DNA from: Phycisphaerae bacterium
GTDB taxonomy: Bacteria > Planctomycetota > Phycisphaerae > UBA1845 > Fen-1342
Direction: 5' to 3'
NCBI GenBank assembly: GCA_028279405.1
Contig: JANQNU010000045.1
Coordinates: 1-36,271 of the forward strand
DNA: 36,271 bases
Position 1 is the first letter of the stretch. The number at the start of each line of letters is the position of its first letter. The notes under the pieces are model-generated. The model was not told the DNA's origin, did no database searches, and saw only the letters and a list, made by a program, of their open reading frames with translations. The position numbers were made by a program, and so were the translations under genes. Shown piece after piece: positions 8,010 through 33,848 of this stretch.

Positions 8010-10829
8010 CTAGTTCTCTTCCGCGCGTTTGACGGAAGCCAACGCGCGCCTGATTGCCATCGTCCGCGTGTCGCCTTCGCCAAAGGTTTGTTCGGCGTGC
8101 TCAAAAATGGCGGCGTACGCCACCGACAGGTTCTGCCAGGCCTCGCCCATTTCCAGCGCATCACTGAGATTCGCGATCACGCTTCTCGTGTTCTGATGAT
8201 CCGCGCCAAAGACCGTCGTCAGGCCGGCGATCACCTCCAGAAAGAGCGGAACCGCTTCGTCGGATCGATCCCATTGTACCAGCAGCCTCGCGATGCGGTT
8301 CATCGACAGTAACGTGCCCCGGTGCGCCGGCCCGAAGACACGTTGTCGAATGGCGAGCGCTTCGCGAAACAGTGCTTCCGCGTCTGCATTGTCTCCGAGC
8401 TTCAGTTTGCAACTTGCAAGGTTCTCGATCGGACCCGCCAGCCCGGCGTGATCCGGTCCATACTTCTCTTTACGCGCCGCGATGATTCTCTGAAACAGAT
8501 CGGCGGCGTCTTGCGGACGCTCCGTCAGGTAGTAGAGGCTGGCCAGGTTGTTCTCTGACTGCAAGGTGGAGGGATGTGTGGCTCCACGCACTTCACGTTG
8601 CGCAGCCAGGAGCGACAGGTACAGTGATTCCGCGGCGTCGAACTCACCCTTCTGACGCAAGAGCACGCAGAGATTCGTCTGAGACTCAAGTGTTTCCGGA
8701 TGCGCTTCGCCAAGCTCGATTCGCCGGGCTTCATACGCGGCGCGCAGATAGACCTCGGCCTCCACCAGTTTCTTCTGCTTGAGCAGAATCGCGCCGAGAT
8801 TCGACTGAGATTCAGTCAGTGCCAGGGAATCGACTTCTTGGTTTGCACCTTGGCGATACTCGATGAAATTGCGCAACGTCGCCTCGGCATCCTCGAGCTG
8901 CCCAAGCGAGAACTGAAGCGTGCCCAGTGTATTGACCCACCGACCGGCATTCGGGTGGGAGAGTCCGAAGGCACGCGATCCGTGCTCGTAGACGCCGCGC
9001 ACGATGGGTTCGGCCTCCTCGAAGCGCCCCTGTGCGATCAGCAACTCCGCCCAACGACTCGTCGCGAACAATGTCTCCTCGTGCTTATTGCCCAGCAGCG
9101 TTTGCTGGATCTCCATCGTTCGCCGTGCTGGAACCTCGGCGAGCGTGAGCATCCCCAACTCGCGTAAGGTCGATGCCAGTGTCGAAAGCAATCGGGTCTG
9201 CACCCGTGGTTGTTCGCCAAACTGCGTGTCGATCGCGCGGATCGATCGCTCGAAGATGCTAGCTTCAAGCGTCGTCAACGCTACGTCGGCCAGGTTGGTC
9301 TCTGCCAGTATCGCGCGCAAAGCGTCACGATCTTTCGCTGGGACGGCATCGAGCATCGCGGCACGCAGGTCTTCGGCCATTGCCGGTACGTCAATGTCAC
9401 TGAGCTGAGTGGATTGGAAGCGCACAACCTGATCGGCTTCCATCCGTGCAGCGATCGCTTCCTCTTTCTCCCGCTGGGCTGCATGTCCTGCCGCGATCGC
9501 AATGTTACGCTGCGTTCGCGCTTCGACGAGGAAGTAGCCGGTCCCGATCAGTCCGATCAGCAGCGCGGCGAAGGTCGCGGCGAGTCCGGCGACCAGGCCC
9601 TTGTTGCGCTTGGCGAACTTGCTAAGTTGGTAAAACGTGCTGGCAGGCCGGGCTTCGATGGGCTGGTCGACCAGAAAACGCCGAATATCGGCGGCGAATT
9701 CAGCCGCGGATGCGTAGCGGCGCTCGCGATCTTTCTCCATCGCCTTGGCCACGATTGTCTCAATGTCGCCGCGCAGCGACTTGTCAATCTCGCCAACCGT
9801 CGCCGGTTCTTCTTCACGAATGATGCGGGCCGCCTCAGCGACGGGCTTGCCCGTCAGATCATGAGGATGCTCGCCGGTGAGCAGTTTGTAGAGCATCACA
9901 CCCAACGCATACACATCGCAGCGTGTATCCAGGTCATCCGAGTGGCCAGCCACCTGTTCGGGCGCCATGTACGCAAGCGTCCCGACGAGTTGACCGACTT
10001 CCGTCTGCACGGTGACGACCTGAAGATCCGCATCGGTTGCGCGCGCGATCCCGAAATCAAGAACCTTGGGTTGGTCGAGCCCATCGAACTCCGATGCGCC
10101 AGCGGACGGTACGGCGTCTTGTTGGACCGTGCGTTCACGCCGGGTGACGACCAGCACATTACTGGGCTTGAGGTCGCGATGGATGATGCTCTTCTGATGG
10201 GCATGCTGAACGGCGTCACAGACGCGGGCGAGCAGTTCCAGACGCTCGCTACTTGCTAGGTTGTACGTGTTCGCATGCACGTCGAGCGGCTCGCCGTTGA
10301 CCAGTTCCATGGCAATGAACGGCTGACGACCATGCGGCAGATCCGCGAGGCCGGCTTCATACACCTGTGCAATGCCGGGATGTTGGAGGTGGCCAAGCAC
10401 CTGCGCTTCGTGTCGGAATCGCTTGAGTACGCTCGTATTGACCGTCCCCGGACGCAGCATCTTCAGCGCAATCAATCGGCGTGGCGAGTCCTGTTCGGCC
10501 TCGTAGATGACGCCCATGCCGCCGGCGCCGATCTGCCGACGGACGCGATAGGGGCCGACGCGTTCGGGTGGCGGCATGTCGTCCCGAAGATCATCGGTCC
10601 GGGGATGACCGACGACGAACTCGGCCAGCGCTTTCGCTCCTCCGCCCAGTTCGACGACTTCGACCGCCTCGCATACCGACGCGTCGTGGACCAGCAGCGA
10701 CTCGACCTCGCGTCGCAGGTCATCGTCAGACCCGCAAAGATCCGTCAGCGCGGTCGCTCGGTCTTCCGGGCGCGCTTCGCACACTTGATCGAATACGGCC
10801 CGCGCTCGTTCGAACAGAGAATCGCTCAT
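8010..10829 (-). CDS. Transmembrane Ser/Thr protein kinase with C-terminal TPR repeats
   Basis: 939 residues. The start ATG 10829 overlaps the sigma factor TGA (ATGA), which fixes it over an in-frame start 18 codons upstream. A helical N-terminus (about 1-60) precedes a Hanks-type kinase domain (about 95-390): glycine loop IGAGGMGVIYEAE, catalytic Lys near 123, HRDLKPSN with Asp near 219, DFG near 258 and APE near 291. A roughly 25-residue insert separates the catalytic loop from DFG. A transmembrane helix follows (about 410-435, GLVAGLAATFAALLIGLIG), then a long TPR array of about 42-residue units (about 540-910), probably extracytoplasmic. ECF sigma factors paired with such kinases are a described planctomycete arrangement in which phosphorylation is thought to control sigma activity. 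That role here is inference from the gene pairing. Confidence 0.95.
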   Translation of the reverse strand: MSDSLFERARAVFDQVCEARPEDRATALTDLCGSDDDLRREVESLLVHDASVCEAVEVVELGGGAKALAEFVVGHPRTDDLRDDMPPPERVGPYRVRRQIGAGGMGVIYEAEQDSPRRLIALKMLRPGTVNTSVLKRFRHEAQVLGHLQHPGIAQVYEAGLADLPHGRQPFIAMELVNGEPLDVHANTYNLASSERLELLARVCDAVQHAHQKSIIHRDLKPSNVLVVTRRERTVQQDAVPSAGASEFDGLDQPKVLDFGIARATDADLQVVTVQTEVGQLVGTLAYMAPEQVAGHSDDLDTRCDVYALGVMLYKLLTGEHPHDLTGKPVAEAARIIREEEPATVGEIDKSLRGDIETIVAKAMEKDRERRYASAAEFAADIRRFLVDQPIEARPASTFYQLSKFAKRNKGLVAGLAATFAALLIGLIGTGYFLVEARTQRNIAIAAGHAAQREKEEAIAARMEADQVVRFQSTQLSDIDVPAMAEDLRAAMLDAVPAKDRDALRAILAETNLADVALTTLEASIFERSIRAIDTQFGEQPRVQTRLLSTLASTLRELGMLTLAEVPARRTMEIQQTLLGNKHEETLFATSRWAELLIAQGRFEEAEPIVRGVYEHGSRAFGLSHPNAGRWVNTLGTLQFSLGQLEDAEATLRNFIEYRQGANQEVDSLALTESQSNLGAILLKQKKLVEAEVYLRAAYEARRIELGEAHPETLESQTNLCVLLRQKGEFDAAESLYLSLLAAQREVRGATHPSTLQSENNLASLYYLTERPQDAADLFQRIIAARKEKYGPDHAGLAGPIENLASCKLKLGDNADAEALFREALAIRQRVFGPAHRGTLLSMNRIARLLVQWDRSDEAVPLFLEVIAGLTTVFGADHQNTRSVIANLSDALEMGEAWQNLSVAYAAIFEHAEQTFGEGDTRTMAIRRALASVKRAEEN

Positions 10830-11428
10830 CCGGAATCTACGCCCCCGAGTTGCCGACTCAGCCAGGCCCTCGTATGGCGCCACTCCCGAGCCACTGTGGA
10901 AGCCGAAATGCCGAGCACGTGAGCGATCTCGTCGGTCGACAAGCCGCCGAACAGGCGCAGCTCGACGAGGCGCGCGGATCGTTCGTTCTGCGCCGCCAAT
11001 TCCGATAGCGCATCGTCCATCGCCACGAGATCAAGCACGGAGCTTTCTGAGGGCGAGCTAAGCCCGCTGAGCGAAACTTCGGCCCTCACACCGGACCGCT
11101 TCGCAGCCCGTTTCGCACGGGCGTGGTCGATCATGATCTGCCGCATGGCCGTGGCGGCGAGCGCGCAGAAATGAGCCCGGTCTTTCCACCCGGAGGTCGT
11201 TCCGACAAGTTTCAGATACGCCTCATGGACGAGCGCTGTCGGCTGGAGAGTGTGGTCGGACCGCTCACGTCTGAAATACCCGCCCGCAACCGCGCGCAAC
11301 TCGTCATAGACGAGCGGCAGCAGGTGCGACGCCGCTGCTGAATCACCGTCGCTTACACGCTGCAGCAGCTCGGTTACCGGACCTGAATCGTCCGCCGGCG
11401 TGCCGAGATGTCCGTCGTCGCCTCGCAT
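10826..11428 (-). CDS. ECF-type RNA polymerase sigma factor
   Basis: 200 residues from ATG 11428; a GTG at 11449 would add seven residues and cannot be excluded. Region 2 (about residues 18-90) includes SHLLPLVYDELRAVAGGYF, and YLKLV and FCALAATAMRQIMIDHARA are typical of the planctomycete sigma-70 family TIGR02999. Region 4 (about 140-195) carries the helix-turn-helix LSTDEIAHVLGISASTVAREW. The linker is Ser-rich. No anti-sigma factor is adjacent. Instead the stop overlaps the start of a Ser/Thr kinase, so the kinase is the likely regulator. The gene is divergent from a fibre protein gene at 11630, whose upstream region holds a box also present before the gene at 14622; these are candidate targets. 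Confidence 0.94.
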   Translation of the reverse strand: MRGDDGHLGTPADDSGPVTELLQRVSDGDSAAASHLLPLVYDELRAVAGGYFRRERSDHTLQPTALVHEAYLKLVGTTSGWKDRAHFCALAATAMRQIMIDHARAKRAAKRSGVRAEVSLSGLSSPSESSVLDLVAMDDALSELAAQNERSARLVELRLFGGLSTDEIAHVLGISASTVAREWRHTRAWLSRQLGGVDSG

Positions 11429-11499: not shown

Positions 11500-11537
11500 T
11501 TGATTGAAACTGCATGAGATTCTCGTGGACGGGGATG
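11500..11537 (+). promoter_or_regulatory. Bipartite box upstream of the S74/RCC1 fibre gene, candidate ECF promoter
   Basis: TTGATTG at 11500-11506 and TCTCGTGGACGGGGATG at 11521-11537. The same pair with the same 21-base offset occurs at 14548-14585 before the next gene. It lies in the divergent region next to the sigma factor gene, 92 bases before the GTG start at 11630. Assignment to the ECF factor is inference. Confidence 0.5.
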
Positions 11538-11629: not shown

Positions 11630-14437
11630 GTGAGATACACGGTACTTCCCCTGATTGCGGTCATGCTGCTCTTCGCCTCGTCGCGTAGCTTGGCCCAATC
11701 TCCGCTCAGCACCGGGTTCACCTACCAGGGCCAGTTGAGTCTCAGCGGCGCGCCCGTCAACGACTCGGCGGACCTCATGTTCACGCTCTGGGACGCGAAC
11801 GCAGACGGTAATCAGGTCGGTTCGGCGGTGGTGGTCAGCAACGTGGCCGTTGTCGACGGCCTGTTCACCGTCGAGCTCGACTTCGGTACAACGGCCTTCA
11901 CCGGCGACGCGCGCTGGCTTGAGATCGCGGTCGCTAGTCCGGCGGGAGGTGCGTTCACAACGCTCAACCCACGACAGCCGCTGACTGCGACGCCATACGC
12001 GCTGCACGCGCTTACCGCGCTCAACGCGACCAACGCCTGGGGAATGACCGGCATGGCCGGCACGGACCCGCTGGTCAACTTCCTGGGCACGACCGACGCG
12101 CAGCCGTTGGTACTCCGTGCGAATAATCAGATTGCCCTCACGCTGACACCCGCTGCCAGTGGCACGCTCATTGGCAACAACGTCGCGGGCGGCTACTGGT
12201 CGAACGCGATCGACGCCGACGTTGTTGGCGGCACGGTTTTCGGCGGCGTTCAGGTTGACGGCTTCGACAGCGTGAACCGCGTCAGCGCCAGCCTCGGAAC
12301 GGTTTCCGGGGGTGCCGGCAACACCGCGGGCCAGGTCGGCGAAGCGCTCGGCAGCGTCGCTGCGACCGTCGGCGGCGGCGTCAACAACACCGCCAACGCC
12401 AGCTATGCCGCGGTCGGCGGAGGGCAGAGCAACAGCGCTTCGGCGTCGAATGCCACCGTTGCTGGCGGCTGGTCAAACAATGCCAACGGCGACGCCTCGG
12501 CCATCGGCGGCGGACAGAACAACAACGTCGCCGGGTCCTGGTCGACCATCAGCGGCGGAAACAACAACCAGGTCAATGGCTGGAACGCAACCATACCCGG
12601 TGGTCGAAACAACCGCGCCAACGCCGACTTCGCGTTTGCCGCGGGCCAGCGCGCCAAGGCGGACCACGAAGGTACGTTCGTTTGGGCGGATTCCGAGGAC
12701 GCCGACTTCACGTCGACCGCGAACAACCAGTTCCTGGTCCGCGCCGTCAACGGCGTGGGCATCAACACCAACGAACCAACCACCGAACTCGACGTCGATG
12801 GCACCGTCACCGCGACCGCTTTCGTCGGCGATGGCTCGGGGCTCACGAGTCTACCCGGAGGTGTGGGCGTTTCACACGCGATGTCAGCCTGGGGTCGCAA
12901 TAATGAAGGACAGGTAGGCGGCGTTCCGACCGGCAATTTCATCGCGGTGGAATCGGGCCAATATCACAACATTGCAATTCGCATGGATGGTTCCTTGGTC
13001 AGTTGGGGATCGAATGAATACGGGCAAACGAGTAACACCCCGACCGGCACGTACATTGATGTTGCGGGCGGCTTTGGGCACAGCGTGGCGATTGCCTCCG
13101 ACGGTTCATTGATCAGCTGGGGACTCGACGATTCGGGGCAGGTGCGCAACGCGCCCACTACTGGTACGTACGTCGCTGTGGCAGCAGGTTCGAAGCACAA
13201 TGTCGCTATCGCGTCGGACGCTTCATTGGTCAGCTGGGGAGTCAACGACTTCGGGCAGATCGGCCAAACGCCAACGACGGGCAGCTATATTGCTGTCGCG
13301 GCTGGCTTGGTCCATAGCGTCGCCATTGCCGAAGACGGGTCGCTGGTCAGTTGGGGCAACGATCAGTTCGGCCAAGTAAGCCAGACCCCCGCGAGCGGCG
13401 CGTACGTCGCCGTGGCGGCTGGCCAATTCTATAGTGTCGCGATCGCCGACGACGGCTCGCTGGTCAGTTGGGGACGAGACAACGCCGGTCAGGTGAGCGG
13501 CACACCATCGAGCGGTTCGTACATTGCCGTCACGGCCGGAGGAGAACATAGCGTCGCGATTACCTCCGATGGATCGCTGGTCAGTTGGGGCTCGAACCAT
13601 CAACGTGCCGTGAGCGATACGCCGACAGCCGGCACATACGGCGCAGTGGCGGCGGGCGATCACCACAGTGTCGCAATGCTCACCGTGACATATGTCGGAC
13701 GCAGCCTAAACGTTGCCGGCACGGTGACTGCCGGCAACATGCGAATGAACGACAACGACATCTTCCTGCGAGGAGGAAGCGACAAGAATCACGGTTTGGG
13801 GTGGTACAGCAGCTCGAAGCCGTTCAGTGATTTCAGCGATGACGGTCCGGTGCTCTACGGGTGGTCCGGCGGCGCACTGGGCACGACGCGAGATGGCCAG
13901 GAGATCATACTGTCCTGGTCCAACGAGGGTCGTGTCGGTATCGGTCGCGCCGCATCCATCAATGTGCTCGAAGTCGAGGGCAACGCGTCAAAGTCCGTTG
14001 CCGGCGATTGGCTCGCCAACTCGGATCGCCGCATCAAGACTGACGTCCAAACCGTCGACAACGCGCTCGACACGCTCGACCGCGTGCGGCTCGTCAGCTT
14101 CGAATACACCGCCGACTACCAGGCAAGCCATCCCGGCGTTGGCGCCGGCCGCTACCTGAACGTCATCGCGCAAGAATTCGCGCAGGTCTTCCCCGATCAC
14201 GTCAAGAGCAGCGGCGAGACACTCCCGAACGGCTCCGAAATCCTCCAGGTCGACACCTACCCGCTGACGATCTACTCCGCGGCTGCGATTCAGGAGTTGC
14301 ATGATCAGATGCGCACGAGGGACCGCGAGATTCGGGCGCTGCAGGCTGAGAACCGAGCGCTGCGGTCGGCGAACGGTGCGCTTGCCGACCGCCTCACCCG
14401 GCTCGAAGCGTTGATGGACAAGCTGACGAGCAACTGA
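11630..14437 (+). CDS. Secreted S74 (intramolecular chaperone) fibre-like protein with RCC1 propeller
   Basis: 935 residues from GTG 11630, with AAAGGAGA ending 5-6 bases upstream. A signal peptide (to about residue 23, SSRSLAQ) is followed by an N-terminal beta domain shared with three other proteins in this window ([16 protein letters not shown]). Next come YadA-head-like repeats (about 220-340, [22 protein letters not shown]), the tail-fibre motif [13 protein letters not shown] (about 400), and seven RCC1/BLIP-II-like repeats of about 39 residues (about 418-684, SLVSWG...GQV). The C-terminal S74 domain has the nucleophile Ser798 in NSDRRIKTD with Lys803 five residues on, as in phage endosialidase and MYRF chaperones, plus [16 protein letters not shown] coiled coil ends the chain (about 885-935). 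Such domains trimerise and cleave themselves off. A trimeric surface fibre is inferred. Confidence 0.92.
12876..13682 (+). repeat. Seven tandem RCC1-type repeats of about 117-120 bases
   Basis: Coding repeat inside the fibre gene. Each unit encodes about 39 residues with SLVSWG, GQV, Y-x-A-V-x-A-G and HSVAI at fixed spacing. The seven units would close one propeller. Confidence 0.8.
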
Positions 14438-14547: not shown

Positions 14548-14585
14548 TTGATAGTGGGCGGGGAGTCCTCTCGTGGACGGGAATG
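14548..14585 (+). promoter_or_regulatory. Second copy of the bipartite box, upstream of the PATR/dockerin gene
   Basis: TTGATAG at 14548-14554 and TCTCGTGGACGGGAATG at 14569-14585, with the same offset as the copy at 11500-11537. Flanking sequence is unlike the first copy, so the element appears conserved for itself. It lies 36 bases before ATG 14622. Confidence 0.55.
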
Positions 14586-23463: not shown

Positions 23464-26313
23464 CTAGCGTGTTCCCGTCTGCTGGACGAGCGCTTCCAAT
23501 CTCTCCAGTCGCTGCCCGAGCGTTTCGTTCACGGTTTTCAGCGCCGCGACCTCGGCGTTCTTCTCTTCCTGAAGCAATTGCAGTTGTTCGATGCGCCGGT
23601 GCAGCGCCTGGGTGGCGGAGACATTCAGCATCGAGATCGCTTCGTAGTCGACGTTGTGGAAGTCGTCGACTTCGCGGCCGTAGACAAAGATGCGGCCTTC
23701 GAGCGACTTCGCTATTCGGAAGCGGTCGGCGCGGACTTCCAGGACTTCGTGGACGCTGGCGCCGTCATCGGTGATCAGTCGCACGCGGTCGCCGACTTCC
23801 AGATCGGTTGCCAGCGCGATCCAGCCGTCTTCGACGGAGGCCGGCTGGTAGATGTCCGGTACGACGTCGGCCGAGAGCGTGACGGCTTGGGGAAAGACGT
23901 CGCGCAGCTGCTGCCCGATGACCTTCTTGTAGGGTTGGTCACCGTTGGTGACCTTGTCGAGCATGGTGTAGTCGGTGACCTCGATGGCCATCAGGGTGTT
24001 GAGGTCGGCGTTGTTGTCGGACAGGCCGACGATGCTCTTGATCCGCGCGTCCGAGTGGGCGTTGAAGGAGCTAGCTGCGATGCGGTGCGACGCGTAGAGC
24101 GAGTAGTTCGCAGGGCTCGATCCCGCACTAATTCCGACGATTCCACTGCGACCGAGGAACGCGTGCAATCCCAGCGCTCTGGAAACGAATCCTTCGATGT
24201 CGACCTTTCCGCGCGTCGGATTGTTCGTACCGATGCCGACGCTTCCGGTGAAGTCAGCGTTGCCTGCGACGGAAAGCGGATTCGTCGGTGCAACCGTTCC
24301 GAGGCCGACGTCGCCGGACGGATCGATCGTGATCGCCGTTTTGTTGTTCGTCTGGTTTTTGAAGACCAATTTGCCCCGACCTTCATCCGCGGAGCCGCCG
24401 GTCGAGAAGATCAGGTATTCCCTGCCGCCGTCTATCGCCCGGGCGTCCAAGCTGAAGAACGCGCCGTGTGGTGCCGTGTCGTCGACCTCGACGCGCAGGT
24501 GCGCGACCGGGGTTTGATTGCCGCCGAGCACGTGCAGCGGTGCGGTCGGGGTGTCCGTGCCAAAGCCGACGAAGCCATTGCTGTAGTGGATGTTGGGGGC
24601 GTTCGTCTCCCATACACCACCCACGGGCAGGTTGGTCAGGCCCGAACCGTCGCCGACGAACGCGCCCGCGGTGACCGTGCCACCGAGTGCCACGTAGGTT
24701 CGGAAGGTAGCGTCGTTTGGGTGGAGATTCGACTGGCCGTCTGGGTAAGGATTGGCGCGTCCATTTCCTATATAGATCGTGTCGTTCGCGGCGACTTCAA
24801 AAGTGTACTGCTGGCCGGCCTGCACAAACGGCATCGCCACGACCGGCAGGTCGACCCACGCCGTCACGCCGGTAGGTAGACTTACTTCGCCTTGCGAGAC
24901 CACTGTTCCCTCAGTGCCGACGCCTTCGTAAACGGTCAGCGTCGCCGAAGTCGCGGTGCCGGTTGCATCTAGCCGAATACTCACCGTTTTGAGCGGTCCG
25001 CTCAGACCGGCTGTGAAGGATTGCCAGAGCCCGAAGACGATTGCGTGGGCATCGAGGGATTCCGACGATTGATCCAACTGGGGCGTCCCGAGCACGAACA
25101 CCGACCCGTTGGCGTGGATGTCGCCGATCACGTCGAGCGCCGCGCCCGGTGTATCCGTACCGACACCGACATTGCCGGCGGTGTAGTAGACGTCGTTCCC
25201 GGATTCGGTCCAGACGCCCGCCATCACCGGCAGGTTGGTGAGCCCCGATCCGTCGCCGACGAACGCGCCCGCGGTGACTGTGCCGTCGACGTCGAGTTCG
25301 GTGCTCGGCGTATTGGTGCCGATGCCGACGCCGCCGGTGGCACGAATCAGGAACTGGTCCTCGGCGGTCGAGGCGAAGTCGGCGGCCGTGTGGTCGGCCC
25401 ATACCCACGCGCCGTGATGATTGGCTTTTGCGCGCCGGCCTGCAGCGAAGCTGTGGTCTCCGGCCGCCACGTTGCTCGCTCCGCCGGGCACGGTCGAGTT
25501 CGTGCCGCTGGCGGTATTGCCCAAACTGCCACTGGAAAAACCGCCGCCGCCCGCCACGACGGAGTTGATGCCGCTGGCCACATTGTCAAAGCCGCCGCCG
25601 ACAGTTGATCGGACGGCGATCGCCTTGTTTCTTTGGCCACCCGCGACTGTTGCGCAGAAATCCCCGGCTTCGTTGGAGTCCCCGCCGCCGATCGTGGCGA
25701 CGAGCGCACCATTGCCCTGACTACCGAAACCCGTGATCCTGTTTGCAGTACCGCCGCCGATTGTGCCCCAGCTACCTGGGTCGTCGATGACGTTGCCTTC
25801 GCCGCCGCCGATCGTGCCGAACGTCTGGCGCACAACATTGCCGCTCCCGCCACTGACCGTAGCGTTACTGCCAATGGCGTCGTTGATTGTCGGGTGAATC
25901 ACGACGGATCCACTTTCGCCAACAACCATGCCGCGCGTTTGCAGCGCGTAAGGCGTTGCGGTTAGTGGCTGGCGGGGGCTGAGCGCCGTAAACGCGCCGC
26001 CGCCGGCCGATTCACGGAGCGCGATCTCAAGCCAGCGGGCGTCGCCGTTGAAGGCCATGACGCCGAAGTCGAGCTCGACAGTGATGAGGCCATCGACGAC
26101 CGCGACCGCGTCGACCGCGAGCATGGAGCCGATCATGTTGCCGCCCGCGTCGGCGTCCCAGAGCGTGAACTCGAAATCGTAGGTGTCGTTGACGGGGGCT
26201 CCAGAGAAATCGAGCCGACCCTGGTAGGTGAAGCCGCCTCCCACGGGTGTCTGGGCGGTCGCCATAGCGGCGAGTACAAGGGTGAGCGCGAATGTGAGCA
26301 GATTCTGACGCAT
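23464..26313 (-). CDS. Secreted S74 fibre-like protein, paralogue 2
   Basis: 949 residues from ATG 26313. GGAG lies 6 bases upstream and a signal peptide follows (MRQNLLTFALTLVLAAMATAQ); an upstream in-frame ATG four codons earlier overlaps that ribosome site. The N-terminal beta domain FTYQGRLDFSGAPVND is nearly identical to that of paralogue 4. YadA-head-like repeats (about 145-300, GGGEGNVIDD, VAGGQRNKAIAV), the tail-fibre motif VGIGTNTPSTELDVDG, one jelly-roll-like module (about 410-545, QSFTAG...QAGQQYTF), and a second fibre motif lead to the S74 domain. Ser754 and Lys759 lie in HSDARIKSIVG, and VIGQQLRDVFPQAV follows. About 130 residues more include a beta insertion (VGDRVRLITDDG) and a terminal coiled coil. 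Self-cleavage and trimerisation are inferred from the domain. Confidence 0.92.
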   Translation of the reverse strand: MRQNLLTFALTLVLAAMATAQTPVGGGFTYQGRLDFSGAPVNDTYDFEFTLWDADAGGNMIGSMLAVDAVAVVDGLITVELDFGVMAFNGDARWLEIALRESAGGGAFTALSPRQPLTATPYALQTRGMVVGESGSVVIHPTINDAIGSNATVSGGSGNVVRQTFGTIGGGEGNVIDDPGSWGTIGGGTANRITGFGSQGNGALVATIGGGDSNEAGDFCATVAGGQRNKAIAVRSTVGGGFDNVASGINSVVAGGGGFSSGSLGNTASGTNSTVPGGASNVAAGDHSFAAGRRAKANHHGAWVWADHTAADFASTAEDQFLIRATGGVGIGTNTPSTELDVDGTVTAGAFVGDGSGLTNLPVMAGVWTESGNDVYYTAGNVGVGTDTPGAALDVIGDIHANGSVFVLGTPQLDQSSESLDAHAIVFGLWQSFTAGLSGPLKTVSIRLDATGTATSATLTVYEGVGTEGTVVSQGEVSLPTGVTAWVDLPVVAMPFVQAGQQYTFEVAANDTIYIGNGRANPYPDGQSNLHPNDATFRTYVALGGTVTAGAFVGDGSGLTNLPVGGVWETNAPNIHYSNGFVGFGTDTPTAPLHVLGGNQTPVAHLRVEVDDTAPHGAFFSLDARAIDGGREYLIFSTGGSADEGRGKLVFKNQTNNKTAITIDPSGDVGLGTVAPTNPLSVAGNADFTGSVGIGTNNPTRGKVDIEGFVSRALGLHAFLGRSGIVGISAGSSPANYSLYASHRIAASSFNAHSDARIKSIVGLSDNNADLNTLMAIEVTDYTMLDKVTNGDQPYKKVIGQQLRDVFPQAVTLSADVVPDIYQPASVEDGWIALATDLEVGDRVRLITDDGASVHEVLEVRADRFRIAKSLEGRIFVYGREVDDFHNVDYEAISMLNVSATQALHRRIEQLQLLQEEKNAEVAALKTVNETLGQRLERLEALVQQTGTR
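23615..24120. repeat. C-terminal S74 block, about 500 bases, repeated at 26659-27163
   Basis: Near-identical at base level, for example GCGTAGAGCGAGTAGTTCGC in both. The conserved block begins before the coiled coil and ends just past the catalytic Ser. The two terminal coiled coils themselves differ. Confidence 0.85.
24622..25250. repeat. Internal fibre module, about 630 bases, repeated at 28200-28828
   Basis: Both copies encode GDGSGLTNLP, the QSFTAG/QAGQQYTF module and the GNVGVGTDTP motif at high base identity. A more diverged third copy lies at about 27601-28200, giving a tandem pair in paralogue 3. Confidence 0.85.
25943..26313. repeat. N-terminal fibre block, about 370 bases, repeated at 31171-31542
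   Basis: The signal peptide and N-terminal beta domain of paralogues 2 and 4 match nearly base for base. Paralogue 3, which lies between them, keeps only the signal peptide and has a different domain after it. Confidence 0.85.
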
Positions 26314-26374
26314 TTGCTTCTCCATTGCCGTTTGCAAGTGGGTTGGACGCTCGGGGGCGTTTCTCGTGTGCCCC

Positions 26375-26430
26375 TCAATCGGTAAACGCAACCGTCACGC
26401 GAGTTCCTTGGCTGTCGGGAGTTATTTTTT
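26375..26430 (-). promoter_or_regulatory. Conserved upstream element of S74 paralogue 2
   Basis: On the minus strand: AAAAAATAAC, then CCAAGGA, CGCG, TGCGTTTAC and TTGA at set distances, about 60-115 bases before the start codon. The same order occurs at 29320-29375 and, more diverged, at 31606-31658. Probable promoter or leader signal. Confidence 0.5.
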
Positions 26431-26493
26431 GTATGTTGTGTTGCGGTTGTTGGTGTCGGCACCGCGCGCGGTCGAACGACGCCAAGAGATGGG

Positions 26494-26515
26494 GGGCCGC
26501 ACTCGCGTACGGCCC
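26494..26515 (-). terminator. Hairpin after S74 paralogue 3
   Basis: GGGCCG, ten bases, CGGCCC, 22 bases downstream of the stop codon at 26538. The same hairpin follows paralogue 4. No T-tract. Confidence 0.5.
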
Positions 26516-26537
26516 GCGCTGCTGTGGTCCTGTCTGA

Positions 26538-29258
26538 CTAGCGCTGCGCTGACGCTTCGAGCAGCGCCTCGAGTCGCTCGAGACGGTTCTTCAGCTCGGC
26601 GATCTCGGTGTTCTTCTCGCTCTCGAGCGTCTTCATCTGTTGGTAGAGCGCTTGCGTCGCCGAGACATTGAGCATCGCGATGGCCTCGTAATCGACGTTG
26701 TGAAAGTCGTCGACTTCGCGGCCGTAGACGAAGATGCGACCTTCGAGCGACTTCGCTACGCGGAAGCGGTCGGCGCGGACTTCCAGGACTTCGTGGACGC
26801 TGGCGCCGTCATCGGTGATCAGTCGCACGCGGTCGCCGACATCCAGATCGGTTGTCAGCGCGATCCAGCCGTCTTCGACGGAGGCCGGCTGGTAGATGTC
26901 GGGTACGACGTCGGGCGAAAGGGTGACGGCTTGCGGAAAGACGTCGCGCAGCTGCTGCCCGATGACCTTCTTGTAGGGCTGGTCACCGTTGGTGACCTTG
27001 TCGAGCATCGTGTAGTCGGTGACTTCGATGGCCAGCAGGGTGCTCAGGTCGGCGTTGTTGTCGGACAGGCCGACGATACTCTTGATCCGCGCGTCCGAGT
27101 GGGCGTTGAAGGAGCTGGCTGCGATGCGGTGCGACGCGTAGAGCGAGTAGTTCGCAGGGTCCGCTCCCGCATTAAGGCCAGTGAGTCCATTGCCGTTCAA
27201 GTACCCGTGCAGGCCCAGTGCCCTGGAAACGAATCCTTCGATGTCGACCATTCCGCGCGTCGGGAAGCGCGTGCCGATACCGACGGGGCCAGAAGGATCA
27301 AGTGTCATCAAGACGCGGTTGTTCGTCTGGTTTTTGAAGACCAGTTTGCCCTGTCCCTCGGCCGCGGAGGCGCCGGACGAAAAGATCAGGTATTCCTTGC
27401 CGCCGTCCGTCGCCTCGGCGTCGAGGCTGAGGATCGATCCGAACGGTGCCGTACCATCGACCTCGACGCGCAAGTGAGAGAGCGGGGTTTGATTGCCGCC
27501 GAGCACGTGCAGCGGCGCGGTCGGCGTGTCCGTCCCGATGCCGACGTTGCCGTCGTTGTAGAACATGTCGTTCCCGGATTCGTTCCAGACGCCCGCCGTC
27601 ACCGGCAGATTGGTCAGGCCCGAACCGTCGCCGACGAACGCGTTCGCGGTGACTGTTCCGCCGGGCCGCACGTAGGTTCGGAAGGTAGCGTCCGCCTCAT
27701 AAGGAAGATTCGCCAGGCCGCCTGCGTAAGGATCGCCGGTTCCAACTCCTATGTCGAGCGATCCGAACAGGAGGAGTCGAAAAGTGTACTGTTGGCCGGC
27801 CTGCAAAGACGGCATCGCCGCAACCGGCATGTCGACCCACCCCGGCCCGCCGAGATTTACGTTGCCGTGCGAGATTATTGTTCCCACAGTGCCGACGCCC
27901 TCATAAATGACCAGAATGCCCGAGGTCGCAGAGCCCATGCCGCTATCCCAAATACTCACCGTTGTGAGCGCCCCGTCCACGCCGGCCGTGAAGGCCTGCC
28001 AGAACCCGAAGCTGGGAAGGGTTGAATCGTTGATTTCCGACGATTGGTCCAACTCGGTCGTCCCGAGTACGGACAACGATCCGTTGGTGCGGATGTCGCC
28101 GATCACGTCGAGCGGCACGGCCGGCGTATCCGTACCGATACCAACATTGCCGGCCGTGTAGTAGACGTCGTTCCCGGCTTCGTTCCAGACGCCCGCCATC
28201 ACTGGCAGGTTGGTCAGCCCCGATCCGTCGCCGATGAACGCGCCCGCAGTGACCGTGCCACCCGGCCGCACGTAGGTTCGGAAGGCAACGTCATTCGTGC
28301 CGAGATTCGACTGGCCGCCTGGGTAAGGATCGGCGCGTCCAATTCCGATGTAGGCCGTATCGTTCGCGGCGACTTCAAACGTGTACTGCTGGCCGGCCTG
28401 CACAGACGGCATCGCCACCACCGGCAGGTCGACCCACGCCGTCACGCCGGTAGGTAGACTTACTTCGCCTTGCGAGACCACTGTTCCCCCAGTGCCGACG
28501 CCCTCGTAAACGGTCAGCGTCGCTGAGGTCGCGGTGCCGAGTTCGTTTAACCGAATACTCACCGTTGTGAGCGGCCCGCTCAGACCGGCTGTGAAGGACT
28601 GCCAGATCCCGTAGTTGATTGCGTATGCGCTGACGGATTCCGACGATTGGTCCAACTGGGTCGTCCCGAGTACGAACACCCCCCCGTTGGCGTGGATGTC
28701 GCCGATCACGTCGAGCGCTGCGGCCGGTGTATCCGTACCGACACCCACATTGCCGGCGGTGTAGTAGACGTCGTTCCCGGATTCGGCCCAGGCGCCCGCC
28801 ATCGCCGGCAGGTTGGTCAGCCCGGAACCGTCGCCGACGAAGGCGTTCGCGGTGACCGTGCCTTGTTGGTCAACGTCGATCCCGCGCGTCTGGAGCGCGT
28901 AGGGGGTGGCGGTGACCGGCTGGCGCGGGGTCAAGGTGACGAACGCGCTGCCCGGCGGGCTTTGAACCGAAACCTCCAGCCAGCGCGCCTCGCCGTTGAA
29001 GACGTCCGGGCCAAAGTTGAGTTCGGTGGTGAAGAGCCCGTCCACCACGTCGCCGCCGGCGAGCACGGTCCGTCCGATCTGCGTGCCGCCGGTTTCCGCA
29101 TCCCACAGCGAAAACTCGAAGTCGGCGACGTCGTTCACCGGGATGCCGCTTGAATCGAGCCGGAACTGGTACGTGAAGGAGTTGCCCAATGGCGTCTGGG
29201 CCGTCGCCATAGCGGCGAGCACAAAGGTGAGCGCGAATGTGAGCAGATTCTGACGCAT
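26538..29258 (-). CDS. Secreted S74 fibre-like protein, paralogue 3, with tandem internal modules
   Basis: 906 residues from ATG 29258, with GGAG at good distance and the signal peptide MRQNLLTFALTFVLAAMATAQ. The N-terminal domain (FTYQFRLDSSGIPVND) is diverged from its neighbours although the signal peptide and upstream DNA match. There are no YadA-like repeats. Instead, two jelly-roll-like modules of about 135 residues (about 200-335 and 395-530) alternate with the tail-fibre motifs GDGSGLTNLP and VGIGTDTP. The S74 domain has Ser721 and Lys726 in HSDARIKSIVG, then VIGQQLRDVFPQAV, the VGDRVRLITDDG insertion and a coiled coil ending RLERLEALLEASAQR. That last sequence equals the end of paralogue 4, not of paralogue 2. 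Probable trimeric secreted fibre; target unknown. Confidence 0.92.
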   Translation of the reverse strand: MRQNLLTFALTFVLAAMATAQTPLGNSFTYQFRLDSSGIPVNDVADFEFSLWDAETGGTQIGRTVLAGGDVVDGLFTTELNFGPDVFNGEARWLEVSVQSPPGSAFVTLTPRQPVTATPYALQTRGIDVDQQGTVTANAFVGDGSGLTNLPAMAGAWAESGNDVYYTAGNVGVGTDTPAAALDVIGDIHANGGVFVLGTTQLDQSSESVSAYAINYGIWQSFTAGLSGPLTTVSIRLNELGTATSATLTVYEGVGTGGTVVSQGEVSLPTGVTAWVDLPVVAMPSVQAGQQYTFEVAANDTAYIGIGRADPYPGGQSNLGTNDVAFRTYVRPGGTVTAGAFIGDGSGLTNLPVMAGVWNEAGNDVYYTAGNVGIGTDTPAVPLDVIGDIRTNGSLSVLGTTELDQSSEINDSTLPSFGFWQAFTAGVDGALTTVSIWDSGMGSATSGILVIYEGVGTVGTIISHGNVNLGGPGWVDMPVAAMPSLQAGQQYTFRLLLFGSLDIGVGTGDPYAGGLANLPYEADATFRTYVRPGGTVTANAFVGDGSGLTNLPVTAGVWNESGNDMFYNDGNVGIGTDTPTAPLHVLGGNQTPLSHLRVEVDGTAPFGSILSLDAEATDGGKEYLIFSSGASAAEGQGKLVFKNQTNNRVLMTLDPSGPVGIGTRFPTRGMVDIEGFVSRALGLHGYLNGNGLTGLNAGADPANYSLYASHRIAASSFNAHSDARIKSIVGLSDNNADLSTLLAIEVTDYTMLDKVTNGDQPYKKVIGQQLRDVFPQAVTLSPDVVPDIYQPASVEDGWIALTTDLDVGDRVRLITDDGASVHEVLEVRADRFRVAKSLEGRIFVYGREVDDFHNVDYEAIAMLNVSATQALYQQMKTLESEKNTEIAELKNRLERLEALLEASAQR

Positions 29259-29319
29259 TTGCTTCTCCATTTGCCGTTTGCTAGTGGGTTGGTCGCTCGG
29301 GGGCGTTCTCGCGTACCCC

Positions 29320-29375
29320 TCAACCGGTAAACGCAGCCGTTGCGCGAGTTCCTTGGCTGTCGGGAATTATTTTTT
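29320..29375 (-). promoter_or_regulatory. Conserved upstream element of S74 paralogue 3
   Basis: Second copy of the element at 26375-26430: AAAAAATAATT, CCAAGGA, TGCGTTTAC and TTGA in the same order on the minus strand. Confidence 0.5.
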
Positions 29376-29437
29376 GTATGTCGTGATGCGGTTGTTGGTG
29401 TCGGCACCGCGCGCGGTCGAACGACGCCAAGAGATGG

Positions 29438-29459
29438 GGGCCGCACTCGCGTACGGCCC
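29438..29459 (-). terminator. Hairpin after S74 paralogue 4
   Basis: GGGCCG, ten bases, CGGCCC on the minus strand, 22 bases after the stop at 29482; identical in arms and position to the hairpin at 26494-26515. Confidence 0.5.
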
Positions 29460-29481
29460 GCGCTTCGGTGTCTCAATCCGG

Positions 29482-31542
29482 TTAGCGCTGCGCCGACGCT
29501 TCGAGCAGCGCCTCGAGTCGTTCGAGGCGGTTCTTCAACACGGCGATCTCGGCGTCTTTCTCTGCGCGCAATTCCTGAATCGCCGCGGCGGAATAGATGG
29601 TGAGCGGGTACGTATCGACCTGGAGAATCTCTGAGCCGTCAGGTAGGCGCTCGCCGCTGCCTTTGACATGGTCCGGGAAGACCTGCGCGAACTCCTGGGC
29701 GATGACGTTCAGATAGCGGCCGTCGCTGACGCCGGCGTGCTTGGCCTTGTAGTCGTCGGTGTACGCGAAGCTGACCAGTCGGACGCGATCGAGTGTGTCG
29801 AGCGCGTTGTCGATCGTCTGGATATCGGTCTTGATGCGCCGATCGGAGTTGGCCAGCCAGTCGCCGGCGGTTGATTTGGACGCATCGCCGCCGACCTCTA
29901 AAGCGTTCGCGACAGCGGTACGATTGATGCCCACCGATCCGGCCGCGTAGACGAAGGTGCGGAACGTCAGATCCCTGAAGGGGCTACTTGATGCTCGGCC
30001 ACCCGAGTAGGGGTTTCCGTTCGCTTGCCCGACCCATACGGATCCAGGGCCATCCACTGTAAAGGTGTATTGCTCGCCGGCCTGGAGCAGTGGTGTGTTC
30101 GCTATCGGAAGATCGACCCATTGCGTCGCGCCGACCGGCACACTCAAGATCTCCTGCGAAAGGACTGGGCCTCCCGGTCCTGCGCCGGCCTGGACGGTGA
30201 GCTCGACGGATGGCGTCTGGTTAGTAGCGTGCACGAGGATGCTGATCGTATGCAGGGCACCGGTTGTTCCAGCCGTGAACGATTGCCAGCCACCGTTTGA
30301 GGTTAGGTTGATGACTTCGTTGGATTGATCAAGCTGGTTCGGGCCGTAATGCACGAAGTTCTCCGTCTGTATCGCGCTCGGCAAGCTCGTGAGACCCGAG
30401 CCGTCACCGATGAATGCGCTAGCGGTGATCGTGCCGGCAACTTCGAGTTCGCTGCTTGGTGTATTGGTGCCGATGCCGACGCCGCCGGTCGCGTCGATCA
30501 GGAACTGGTCCGCGGCTGTGGAGGCGAACACCTCGTCGCTGCTTGACCAGACGAACGCCCCGTCGTGCTGTGCTTCGGCCTCACGTCCCGCGGCGAAGCT
30601 GTGCGCTCCGTCGGCGGCGTTGCTTCTCCCGCCCGGGATCGTGGCATACTCGCCGGTGGCCCTGTTGAAGAAACCACCACCGACCGCGGCGAAGTTGTTT
30701 TCGGCCACGTTGAAGCGCCCGCCCGTCACGGCCGAAGCATCGCCATCTGCCAGGTTGCCAATGCCGCCGGCAATCACTGCGGCGCCGATGCCGCCGATCG
30801 TACTTCTCACGGTGTTCGAGCTGCCGCCGCCGATGGTCTGCTGTGACCCGCCGCCCTCGATCGTGTTGCCGAGACCGCCGCTGATCGTCGCGTCGTTGTT
30901 ATTTTCGCCGACCCGATTCGGTAAGCTTTCGGTGCCGCCGAAAACAGTCGCGTTGATACTCCCGCTCGCCACCTCATTGGCGGAAGAGCCGCCGATGAGG
31001 TTGCCCGCCACCTGACCGCCCACGAATTGCGTCGGTTCGAGTCGCAGCGCCCGCTCGCCGTTCACGCGCAGCTCGAGCGGCTGCTGATCGGTGGTGCCCA
31101 AGAAATTCGTGTTCGGGTCCGTGCCGGCGTTGCCGCCGAGCGCCCAGGCGTTGGTGGCGTTGAGTGCCTGGAGCGCGTAAGGCGCCGCGGTCAGCGGCTG
31201 GCGGGGGCTGAGCGCCGTAAACGCGCCGCCGCCGGCCGATTCACGGAGCGCGATCTCGAGCCAGCGGGCGTCGCCGTTGAAGGCCATGACGCCGAAGTCG
31301 AGTTCGACCGTAATGAGGCCATCGACGACCGCGACCGCGTCGACCGCGAGCACGGAGCCGATCATGTTGCCGTTAGTGTCGGCGTCCCAGAGCATGAACT
31401 CGAAATCGTAGGTGTCGTTGACGGGTTCTCCAGAGAAATCGAGCCGGCCCTGATAGGAGAAGCCGCTCCCCACGAGTGTCTGAGCGGCCGCGGTCGCGGC
31501 GAGTGTCAGGGTCAGTACGAATGTAAGCAGATTTTGGCGCAT
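29482..31542 (-). CDS. Secreted S74 fibre-like protein, paralogue 4
   Basis: 686 residues from ATG 31542 (AAGGGAG upstream, signal peptide MRQNLLTFVLTLTLAATAAAQ). The N-terminal domain is nearly identical to paralogue 2. A YadA-head-like array (about 190-330, GGGSSNTVRS, GGGFFNRATGE) leads to VGIGTNTPSSELEVAG and one jelly-roll-like module (about 405-530, QSFTAGTTG...LQAGEQYTF). The catalytic end resembles the gene at 11630 rather than its neighbours: [16 protein letters not shown] with Ser566 and Lys571, then [15 protein letters not shown] and [11 protein letters not shown]. The coiled coil at the extreme C-terminus again matches paralogue 3. It is the shortest of the four and a clear mosaic. 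It is the first gene of the minus-strand fibre cluster, though each gene seems to have its own leader and hairpin. Confidence 0.92.
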   Translation of the reverse strand: MRQNLLTFVLTLTLAATAAAQTLVGSGFSYQGRLDFSGEPVNDTYDFEFMLWDADTNGNMIGSVLAVDAVAVVDGLITVELDFGVMAFNGDARWLEIALRESAGGGAFTALSPRQPLTAAPYALQALNATNAWALGGNAGTDPNTNFLGTTDQQPLELRVNGERALRLEPTQFVGGQVAGNLIGGSSANEVASGSINATVFGGTESLPNRVGENNNDATISGGLGNTIEGGGSQQTIGGGSSNTVRSTIGGIGAAVIAGGIGNLADGDASAVTGGRFNVAENNFAAVGGGFFNRATGEYATIPGGRSNAADGAHSFAAGREAEAQHDGAFVWSSSDEVFASTAADQFLIDATGGVGIGTNTPSSELEVAGTITASAFIGDGSGLTSLPSAIQTENFVHYGPNQLDQSNEVINLTSNGGWQSFTAGTTGALHTISILVHATNQTPSVELTVQAGAGPGGPVLSQEILSVPVGATQWVDLPIANTPLLQAGEQYTFTVDGPGSVWVGQANGNPYSGGRASSSPFRDLTFRTFVYAAGSVGINRTAVANALEVGGDASKSTAGDWLANSDRRIKTDIQTIDNALDTLDRVRLVSFAYTDDYKAKHAGVSDGRYLNVIAQEFAQVFPDHVKGSGERLPDGSEILQVDTYPLTIYSAAAIQELRAEKDAEIAVLKNRLERLEALLEASAQR

Positions 31543-31605
31543 GTCCGCTCCCTTGTGGCCTTGCGGGTTCGTGAGTGTAACGGAGGCGTTCCGACGACCG
31601 CCTCG

Positions 31606-31658
31606 TCAACCCGTAAACGCAAGCGATCCGCGCGCTCCTTGGTCGTCTCAATTATTTT
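31606..31658 (-). promoter_or_regulatory. Diverged upstream element of S74 paralogue 4, in a 329-base intergenic region
   Basis: AAATAATT, CCAAGGA, CGCG, TTGCGTTTAC and TTGA keep order and approximate spacing with the elements of paralogues 2 and 3 while flanking sequence differs, so the element is likely functional. In the rest of 31543-31871 I see only a small hairpin, GTCACC-GAGAC-GGTGAC (31672-31688), and the ribosome site of the next gene. Confidence 0.5.
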
Positions 31659-32751: not shown

Positions 32752-33678
32752 TCAGTTCCGATCGCGCCCGATCGGCGGTCGGCGGTGCCCACGAGTCTCG
32801 AACCCCCGTGCATAGTCTCGCAGGCCCGCGCGAAATGCGCCCAGCAGACGGCTCTGGTACCGGTAGGGGTTAGACAGCGCCGCGATCGTACGTTTCGGTG
32901 TAACGCCGGACAACGAGCGATAGACACGCCGCTTGGACGAATCCAGTCGGCGGGCCATCTCGGGAATCATCGAAACGCCGTGCGACAACGCCACGAGTTC
33001 CTGGACGGTTGCAATCTGGCTCGTACGTTCGACCGCGATCGGCTGAAACGCGCGCTGCTGGCAAAATGCAACCACGTTACCCGACAAGCAATGCGCCTCG
33101 TCCAGCAAAACGAACGCGTGCTGCTTGATGTCCCTGATCCCGATCCGACGCTTTCCAGCGAGCGGATGATCGTGCGCGACAACGAGTAGCAACTCCTCGT
33201 CGAACAACGGCTCCACGTCGAGATAGCGGACGGAGATCGGCAGCGCCAGCAGCGCCAGGTCGATTTCGCCTTGCTTGCAGCGATGGATCAGGTTGTCCGT
33301 CGTATCTTCCTGGACCAGCAGGCTCGCTCCCGGATAGTCCCGCGCAAACTCACGCAGCAGGCCCGGCAAAAAGAACGGCGCAATCGTTGGGATCGCGCCC
33401 AGCCGAATCCGTCCGCGCTCCGCGTCGTCGATCAACTCGGCCTTGACTTCATCCAGTGTGACCGTGATCTGCCGCGCTGCCGCCTGAAAACGCGTGCCGG
33501 CGTCCGTCAGCGCCACAGACCGCGACCGACGTTCGAATAGCGGTCGGCCAAGCTCATCCTCGAGCCGTTGAATCGAGCGGCTCAGCGCCGGCTGCGACAT
33601 GTGAAGTGCGTTCGCCGCGCGCGTGAAGTTCCGCAACTCGGCGACCCGCAGAAAGTAGCGTAGCTGGTCCAGATCCAT
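32752..33678 (-). CDS. OxyR-like LysR-family transcriptional regulator
   Basis: 308 residues from ATG 33678, the second of two adjacent ATGs and the one with AGGAG 6 bases upstream. The N-terminal winged helix (about 1-60) reads [39 protein letters not shown] in sections typical of LysR proteins, followed by a linker helix and the effector domain (about 90-295). Cys197 in EAHCLSG and Cys206 in VAFCQQ are nine residues apart and fall where E. coli OxyR has Cys199 and Cys208, the peroxide-sensing pair. Divergent transcription from a catalase gene 170 bases away is the classic arrangement of such regulators. It therefore probably senses peroxide and controls the catalase. An oxyR name is likely but not given, since only motifs were compared. 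Confidence 0.9.
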
Positions 33679-33699
33679 CATCGGCTCCTGCGACTCAAC

Positions 33700-33770
33700 T
33701 GATGCAAAACATGCATGAATCATATCATAAAGATGCATTGGATGTATCTCAAAGCACATCCTATCCTCCT
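33700..33770. promoter_or_regulatory. AT-rich divergent regulator/catalase control region
   Basis: A strikingly AT-rich stretch for this window. It has two ATGCAT palindromes (33711-33716 and 33733-33738) and a possible sigma-70-like promoter for the catalase, TTGGAT (33738-33743), 18 bases, TATCCT (33762-33767). LysR binding somewhere here is expected but no exact OxyR site is claimed. Confidence 0.4.
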
Positions 33771-33848
33771 GCATCGACGCTCAGAGTGCTGAAACGCGAG
33801 GTGGTCCCCGCGCGGCTAGCGGGATCGAAACTTGAGGGAGGTGCCATG

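Follow-up and report, generated by a model that had tools for sequence, protein, structure and literature searches.

A repeated element before genes for very large secreted proteins in a Phycisphaerae bacterium is probably the core promoter of a small regulon read by an ECF sigma factor

The window, a stretch of 36,271 nucleotides covering positions 1 to 36,271 of contig JANQNU010000045.1 of a Phycisphaerae bacterium, contains three related genes on the minus strand. Gene C (23464..26313) encodes a repetitive fibre-like protein of 949 aa, gene B (26538..29258) a second fibre-like protein, and gene A (29482..31542) a 686-aa protein with an endosialidase-type Peptidase_S74 chaperone (Pfam, 6e-14). 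The start of gene B was set at 29258, where MRQNLL follows GGAG; the mechanical ORF begins at 29270. All three products share the N-terminus MRQNLLTF, have a signal peptide as judged by eye, and are repetitive and secreted-looking. Aligned over 977 columns, the B and C proteins agree in 561; the best local alignment of A with C begins at residue 1 and has 289 identities in 600 columns. The B product has a phage-fibre match below the Pfam threshold, and the gene C product matched no Pfam domain. As drawn from these sequences, the label 'fibre' seems fair but thin. Elsewhere in the window, positions 33702-36221 encode a catalase that carries ankyrin repeats at its C-terminus, which appears to be an unusual fusion.

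The leaders of genes B and C are duplicates of one another. The B-C intergenic leader (26314..26537, minus strand, 224 nt) and the A-B intergenic leader (29259..29481, minus strand, 223 nt) share 202 identical positions in an alignment of 225 columns (90%); the initial annotation of this DNA had noticed their near-identity. By itself this degree of identity is also expected from tandem duplication. The same annotation had described an ordered core consisting of AAATAA, CCAAGGA, TGCGTTTAC and TTGA, and this core was found upstream of all three genes, including gene A, where the remainder of the leader has diverged. Copy C occupies 26375..26427 on the minus strand (AAATAA 26427-26422, CCAAGGA 26411-26405, TGCGTTTAC 26390-26382, TTGA 26378-26375). 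Copy B occupies 29320..29372 on the same strand (AAATAA 29372-29367, CCAAGGA 29356-29350, TGCGTTTAC 29335-29327, TTGA 29323-29320), as does copy A at 31606..31657 (AAATAA 31657-31652, CCAAGGA 31642-31636, TGCGTTTAC 31621-31613, TTGA 31609-31606). The spacer between CCAAGGA and TGCGTTTAC is 14 nt in each of the three.

The occurrence of CCAAGGA-N14-TGCGTTTAC was determined in the genome to which the window belongs (5.63 Mb in 92 contigs). As this genome is 95.5% complete, the site counts are lower bounds. Five sites match exactly; no site has one mismatch, two sites have two mismatches and 20 have three, compared with 30 sites at up to three mismatches for the pattern read backward. Each of the two-mismatch sites overlaps a mechanical ORF of 100 aa or more. 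Three of the exact sites are copies A, B and C, and the other two lie on a further contig, C29. The distance from TGCGTTTAC to the start codon is 68 nt for C, 68 nt for B, 70 nt for A, 68 nt for the first C29 site and 70 nt for the second. The possibility that the element turns up at random in the genome is contradicted by these five perfect copies: each precedes a gene for a large protein that looks secreted by eye, at 68-70 nt from its start codon. The element occurs above chance in this genome. A variant with a 15-nt gap was rejected, as it gave chance-level sites only. A search of 60 relatives with the longer pattern at up to two mismatches returned nothing except one two-mismatch site in genome G053.

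The contig C29 sites lie beside a sigma factor gene. P0006, encoded on the minus strand at 6091-6690 of locus L030 (C29:68000-87000), is an ECF sigma factor by PF07638 (1.9e-60, 204.4 bits; cut-off 21.1) and by TIGR02999 (216.6 bits, above the curated cut-off of 126.15). Downstream on the same strand follows a gene for a Ser/Thr kinase with TPR repeats (Pkinase 3.3e-39). The first C29 site is in the divergent region between this sigma-kinase operon and a gene for a 1558-aa product, and the second, 4.9 kb away, precedes a gene for a 1556-aa product. These two proteins are 56% identical to one another and both have a lipobox-like start as judged by eye. Between the C29 proteins and those of the window no significant similarity was detected (lowest E 0.019 among six pairs), and descent of the genes from a common ancestor therefore fails to account for the element that they share. 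Genes A, B and C are not adjacent to P0006. Since the scan of this genome found no exact copy of the box directed at the P0006 operon, autoregulation of P0006 through this box is improbable.

The form of the element suggests a core promoter. CCAAGGA would be the -35 element and TGCGTTTAC the -10 element, with the start-site region at TTGA; the A/T-rich sequence further upstream (AAATAA) may serve as an UP element. The GGA of CCAAGGA presumably stands in the register of the AAC of an ECF -35 element. The hallmark of ECF promoters, as described in PMC8103513, is AAC in the -35 and CGT in the -10 element. At all five sites TGCGTTTAC contains CGT, and GGA stands 16 nt before this CGT; AAC is present in three of the five but lies two bases further downstream than the GGA register. 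Because GGA takes the place of AAC, we call the element an ECF-like promoter with an atypical -35. It resembles the canonical promoters of that account in having CGT in the -10 element and two blocks at fixed spacing, and differs from them in GGA and in a longer conserved -10, TGCGTTTAC in the five sites of this genome.

A search for proteins related to P0006 covered 60 relatives, 114 genomes of the order and a collection of named genomes, and the sequence upstream of 91 ECF genes (44 from this genome, 31 from relatives, 16 named) was scanned over 420 nt each, the shortest being 240 nt. GGR-N14-TGCGTTT was present on the divergent strand at 7/91 loci, versus 0/91 in the reverse complement and 0/91 in the reversed sequence. 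The seven are P0006 itself and, with their identity to P0006, G033 C27 (74%), L153 (70%), G068 (68%), G111 (67%), G044 (63%) and G040 (54%); counting P0006, they include the five loci closest to it in sequence. L153, from a Phycisphaerae (Planctomycetota) MAG, is the closest named sigma locus among those with an upstream region. Of eight loci from other genomes that are at least 61% identical to P0006 and have upstream sequence, five carry the motif, directed away from the sigma gene. It was absent upstream of the other three, G033 C4 (65%), G098 (61%) and G003 C309 (61%), as well as of the paralogues on contigs C48 and C53 of the window's genome (about 60%). A further relative, L171, is 83% identical to P0006 over a fragment cut by the contig end, and stands outside the eight. 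L171 and another ECF relative, L154 (54%), are on contigs labelled Acidimicrobiia and are possibly mis-binned. Three copies are present at the G033 locus, before mechanical ORFs of 613, 1521 and 2115 aa, and the G068 and G111 loci have two copies each. Between species the -35 block varies (CAAGGA, TTGGGA, CAGGGA, TTCGGG, TACGGG, TAGGGG), while the gap and TGCGTTT are constant. The design of the element is thus conserved at related sigma loci. Acidobacterial relatives of the sigma factor in three Pyrinomonadaceae MAGs (L156, L158, L160) have a similar block, GCGTTA..TTGAAGG, in the divergent region with TGACCC upstream.

A matrix built from the three window sites only, with no sigma locus contributing to it, was applied to the same 91 upstream regions. 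The C29 locus scored 29.8 bits, first of the 44 ECF loci of its genome, of which the next scored 14.3 bits. P0006 and the four loci nearest to it in sequence were all in the top seven of the 91, and the highest control scores were 8.6 bits (reverse complement) and 11.6 bits (reversed). Over all 91 loci the correlation between matrix score and similarity to P0006 was not significant (Spearman 0.18, p 0.09); this weak overall correlation suggests that the motif marks the close relatives of P0006, not the whole family. With a looser -10 matrix, made from the five sites of this genome and the three of G033, 10 of 76 other ECF loci reached at least 10 bits, versus 1 and 2 in the controls; the two loci that supplied the matrix and one region shorter than 150 nt had been set aside. 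Unsupervised motif discovery in 62 divergent regions returned other motifs and not GGR-N14-TGCGTTT, and for one of two widths the real strand did no better than the reverse.

With a probability of roughly 77%, we take the element to be a core promoter that is read by P0006 and unites a few genes for very large secreted proteins in one small regulon. The best reading for genes A, B and C is still the coordinated control first suggested for them, distinct from that of the box at 11500 and 14548. The further contig, the ECF-type core promoter form and the probable sigma factor had gone unnoticed in the initial annotation. It is from the position of the first C29 site and from the related sigma loci that we infer that P0006 would recognize the sites, and the start of transcription near TTGA is likewise predicted.

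Other explanations were weighed against this reading. The strongest is that the element is indeed an ECF promoter but is read by a different ECF sigma factor or by several, and that the five genes are not private to P0006. The genome does hold 44 strong PF07638 matches, and the ECF gene at C69:146891 is faced by a partly similar site (14.3 bits), so cross-talk is possible. Yet the C29 locus stands 15 bits above the other 43 ECF loci of the genome in the matrix test, and the assembled genome has no other exact site, which makes reading by another ECF factor unlikely. It is less probable still that the element is the operator of a transcription factor that works on an ordinary promoter. The window has a gene for a LysR-type regulator nearby (32752-33774), and operators can be long conserved sites, but the core is not palindromic by eye and consists of two unequal blocks with a fixed 14-nt gap. 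Moreover, its distance from the start codon is near-constant in this genome and it recurs upstream of related ECF genes, neither of which favors an operator.

Tandem duplication, in which each gene was copied together with its leader and the core is under no selection, would account for the near-identity of leaders B and C; the first 120 coding nt of the two genes are also alike (96/120). However, the core was retained before gene A although the remainder of that leader diverged, it precedes two C29 genes with no significant similarity to those of the window, and it recurs at related sigma loci elsewhere, so a mere footprint of duplication is very improbable. Least probable of all is an RNA element of the 5' untranslated leader, such as a riboswitch or attenuator. 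Although the start-codon distance is near-constant and a GC hairpin is visible by eye just past TTGA in A, B and C, the five leaders fold no clearly better than shuffled sequences (z -1.46, -1.54, -1.09, +0.46 and -1.69) and the folding of the C29 leaders differs.

P0006 is one of many such sigma factors in this genome, which has 72 PF07638 matches, 44 of them strong (E <1e-28). A kinase motif, HRDxKxxN or close to it, lies within 4 kb downstream at 37 of the 44 strong loci, and one of the seven lacking it is cut by the contig end. A stricter test that also included DFG left 31/44. The ORF neighboring the ECF gene, examined at the 29 of 44 loci with a resolved ECF, is divergent in 20 cases and on the same strand in eight; in the remaining one the contig ends. 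With the ECF gene resolved at only these loci, the count carries no weight in what follows. Many of these ECF genes have a TATAAT-like block on their own strand near the start which, as judged by eye, is unlike the divergent boxes.

The DAED motif of sigma2.2 binds RNA polymerase. In P0006 this motif is replaced by QPTA. ECF43 factors likewise have an uncharged sigma2.2 motif (STTA in EcfP, QTTA as the consensus), and its Thr is phosphorylated by the partner kinase, according to the accounts of the group consulted in PMC8999054 and PMC13147305. A Thr occupies this position in 43 of the 44 strong ECF proteins of the genome, the exception being C57:319294; the motif of C69:113133 is QTTA and that of C75:22005 is QPTA. 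Because the Thr of P0006 occupies the ECF43 phosphorylation position, activation of this sigma factor by its kinase is probable. If ECF43 factors are a guide, the kinase would phosphorylate the Thr of QPTA, and phosphorylated P0006 would then be able to bind RNA polymerase. It would fire the five promoters jointly, those of the two adjacent giant lipoprotein-like genes and those of the three fibre-like genes of the window. In EcfK a Thr-to-Ala change leaves the protein functional, and a linker site, T106, also matters, as described in the relevant part of PMC13147305.

The arrangement is comparable with that of EcfP/PknT of Vibrio parahaemolyticus and EcfK/PknS of Xanthomonas citri, in which, as these pairs are presented in the sources cited, the ECF gene adjoins a Ser/Thr kinase gene. 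P0006 and a second ECF factor of the window, P0009, resemble ECF43 in having a Hanks-type kinase neighbor and an uncharged QPTA with its Thr, a likeness of synteny and motif only. As targets of EcfP and EcfK those sources describe a type VI secretion system and polymyxin resistance, whereas giant secreted proteins are proposed here, and unlike those systems, dozens of such ECF factors occur in one genome. The phylum and the ECF-kinase synteny are shared with the planctomycete groups ECF59, ECF61, ECF62 and ECF217, for which kinase control has been proposed (PMC8999054, in its treatment of these groups). Groups other than ECF43 keep DAED or a similar acidic motif in that same treatment, in contrast to the QPTA of P0006.

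P0009 (10826..11449, minus strand) is assigned by TIGR02999 (213.4 bits; cut-off 126.15) and PF07638 (183.4 bits), and here too QPTA replaces DAED. Its partner is a Ser/Thr kinase with TPR repeats (8010..10883, minus strand; Pkinase 1.1e-38), and divergent from the pair lies the plus-strand gene of a 935-aa protein with RCC1-like repeats and Peptidase_S74 (11630..14437). The second box of the window, TTGAT-N16-TCTCGTGGACGGG, is similar in design to the first; one copy lies in the divergent region of this pair (11500..11533, plus strand) and the second copy (14548..14581, plus strand) ahead of an ORF of 1506 aa that has FG-GAP and PA14 domains. Over the whole genome this pattern gave two exact sites, one with two mismatches and three with three mismatches; the backward control gave none. 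The two-mismatch site (C1:46932-46965, locus L146) lies before an ORF of 733 aa; like the window proteins, its product contains a TYQGQL stretch. The block CGTNNACSG is common to both boxes; a scan of the 600 nt upstream of the 44 ECF genes of this genome showed that it is not general. We propose from these sequences that P0009 reads the second box and not the first. This fits a picture in which two ECF-kinase pairs would use different promoters, each before giant secreted proteins. Repeated two-block boxes are possible before large ORFs at L079 (C13:332401) and L100 (C50:6106), among the matches listed. The two-block search behind these, run inside every ECF locus with three masks, gave 225, 290 and 315 hits on the real strand, 393, 393 and 413 on the reverse complement, and 2, 2 and 7 on the reversed sequence; because the reverse-complement control exceeds the real strand, these boxes are only a lead.

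The window thus holds two candidate promoter codes, CCAAGGA-N14-TGCGTTTAC and the box at 11500 and 14548. An ECF-type promoter with its regulon is a known kind of system, of which this is a new member; in the literature searched, which yielded only the ECF-kinase synteny and the ECF43 studies, we found no target promoter or regulon for any planctomycete ECF-kinase pair. It is conceivable, if somewhat short of an even chance, that the genome harbors several dozen insulated sigma-kinase channels, each with a promoter code of its own that precedes the gene of one adjacent giant secreted protein and those of a few distant ones, and that kinase input would select what is displayed on the surface. 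The present finding gives one ECF-kinase pair a concrete promoter, a candidate regulon of five genes and a named sigma factor. What the kinases of planctomycetes control becomes directly testable, and these sequences suggest that they govern how very large surface or secreted proteins are displayed.
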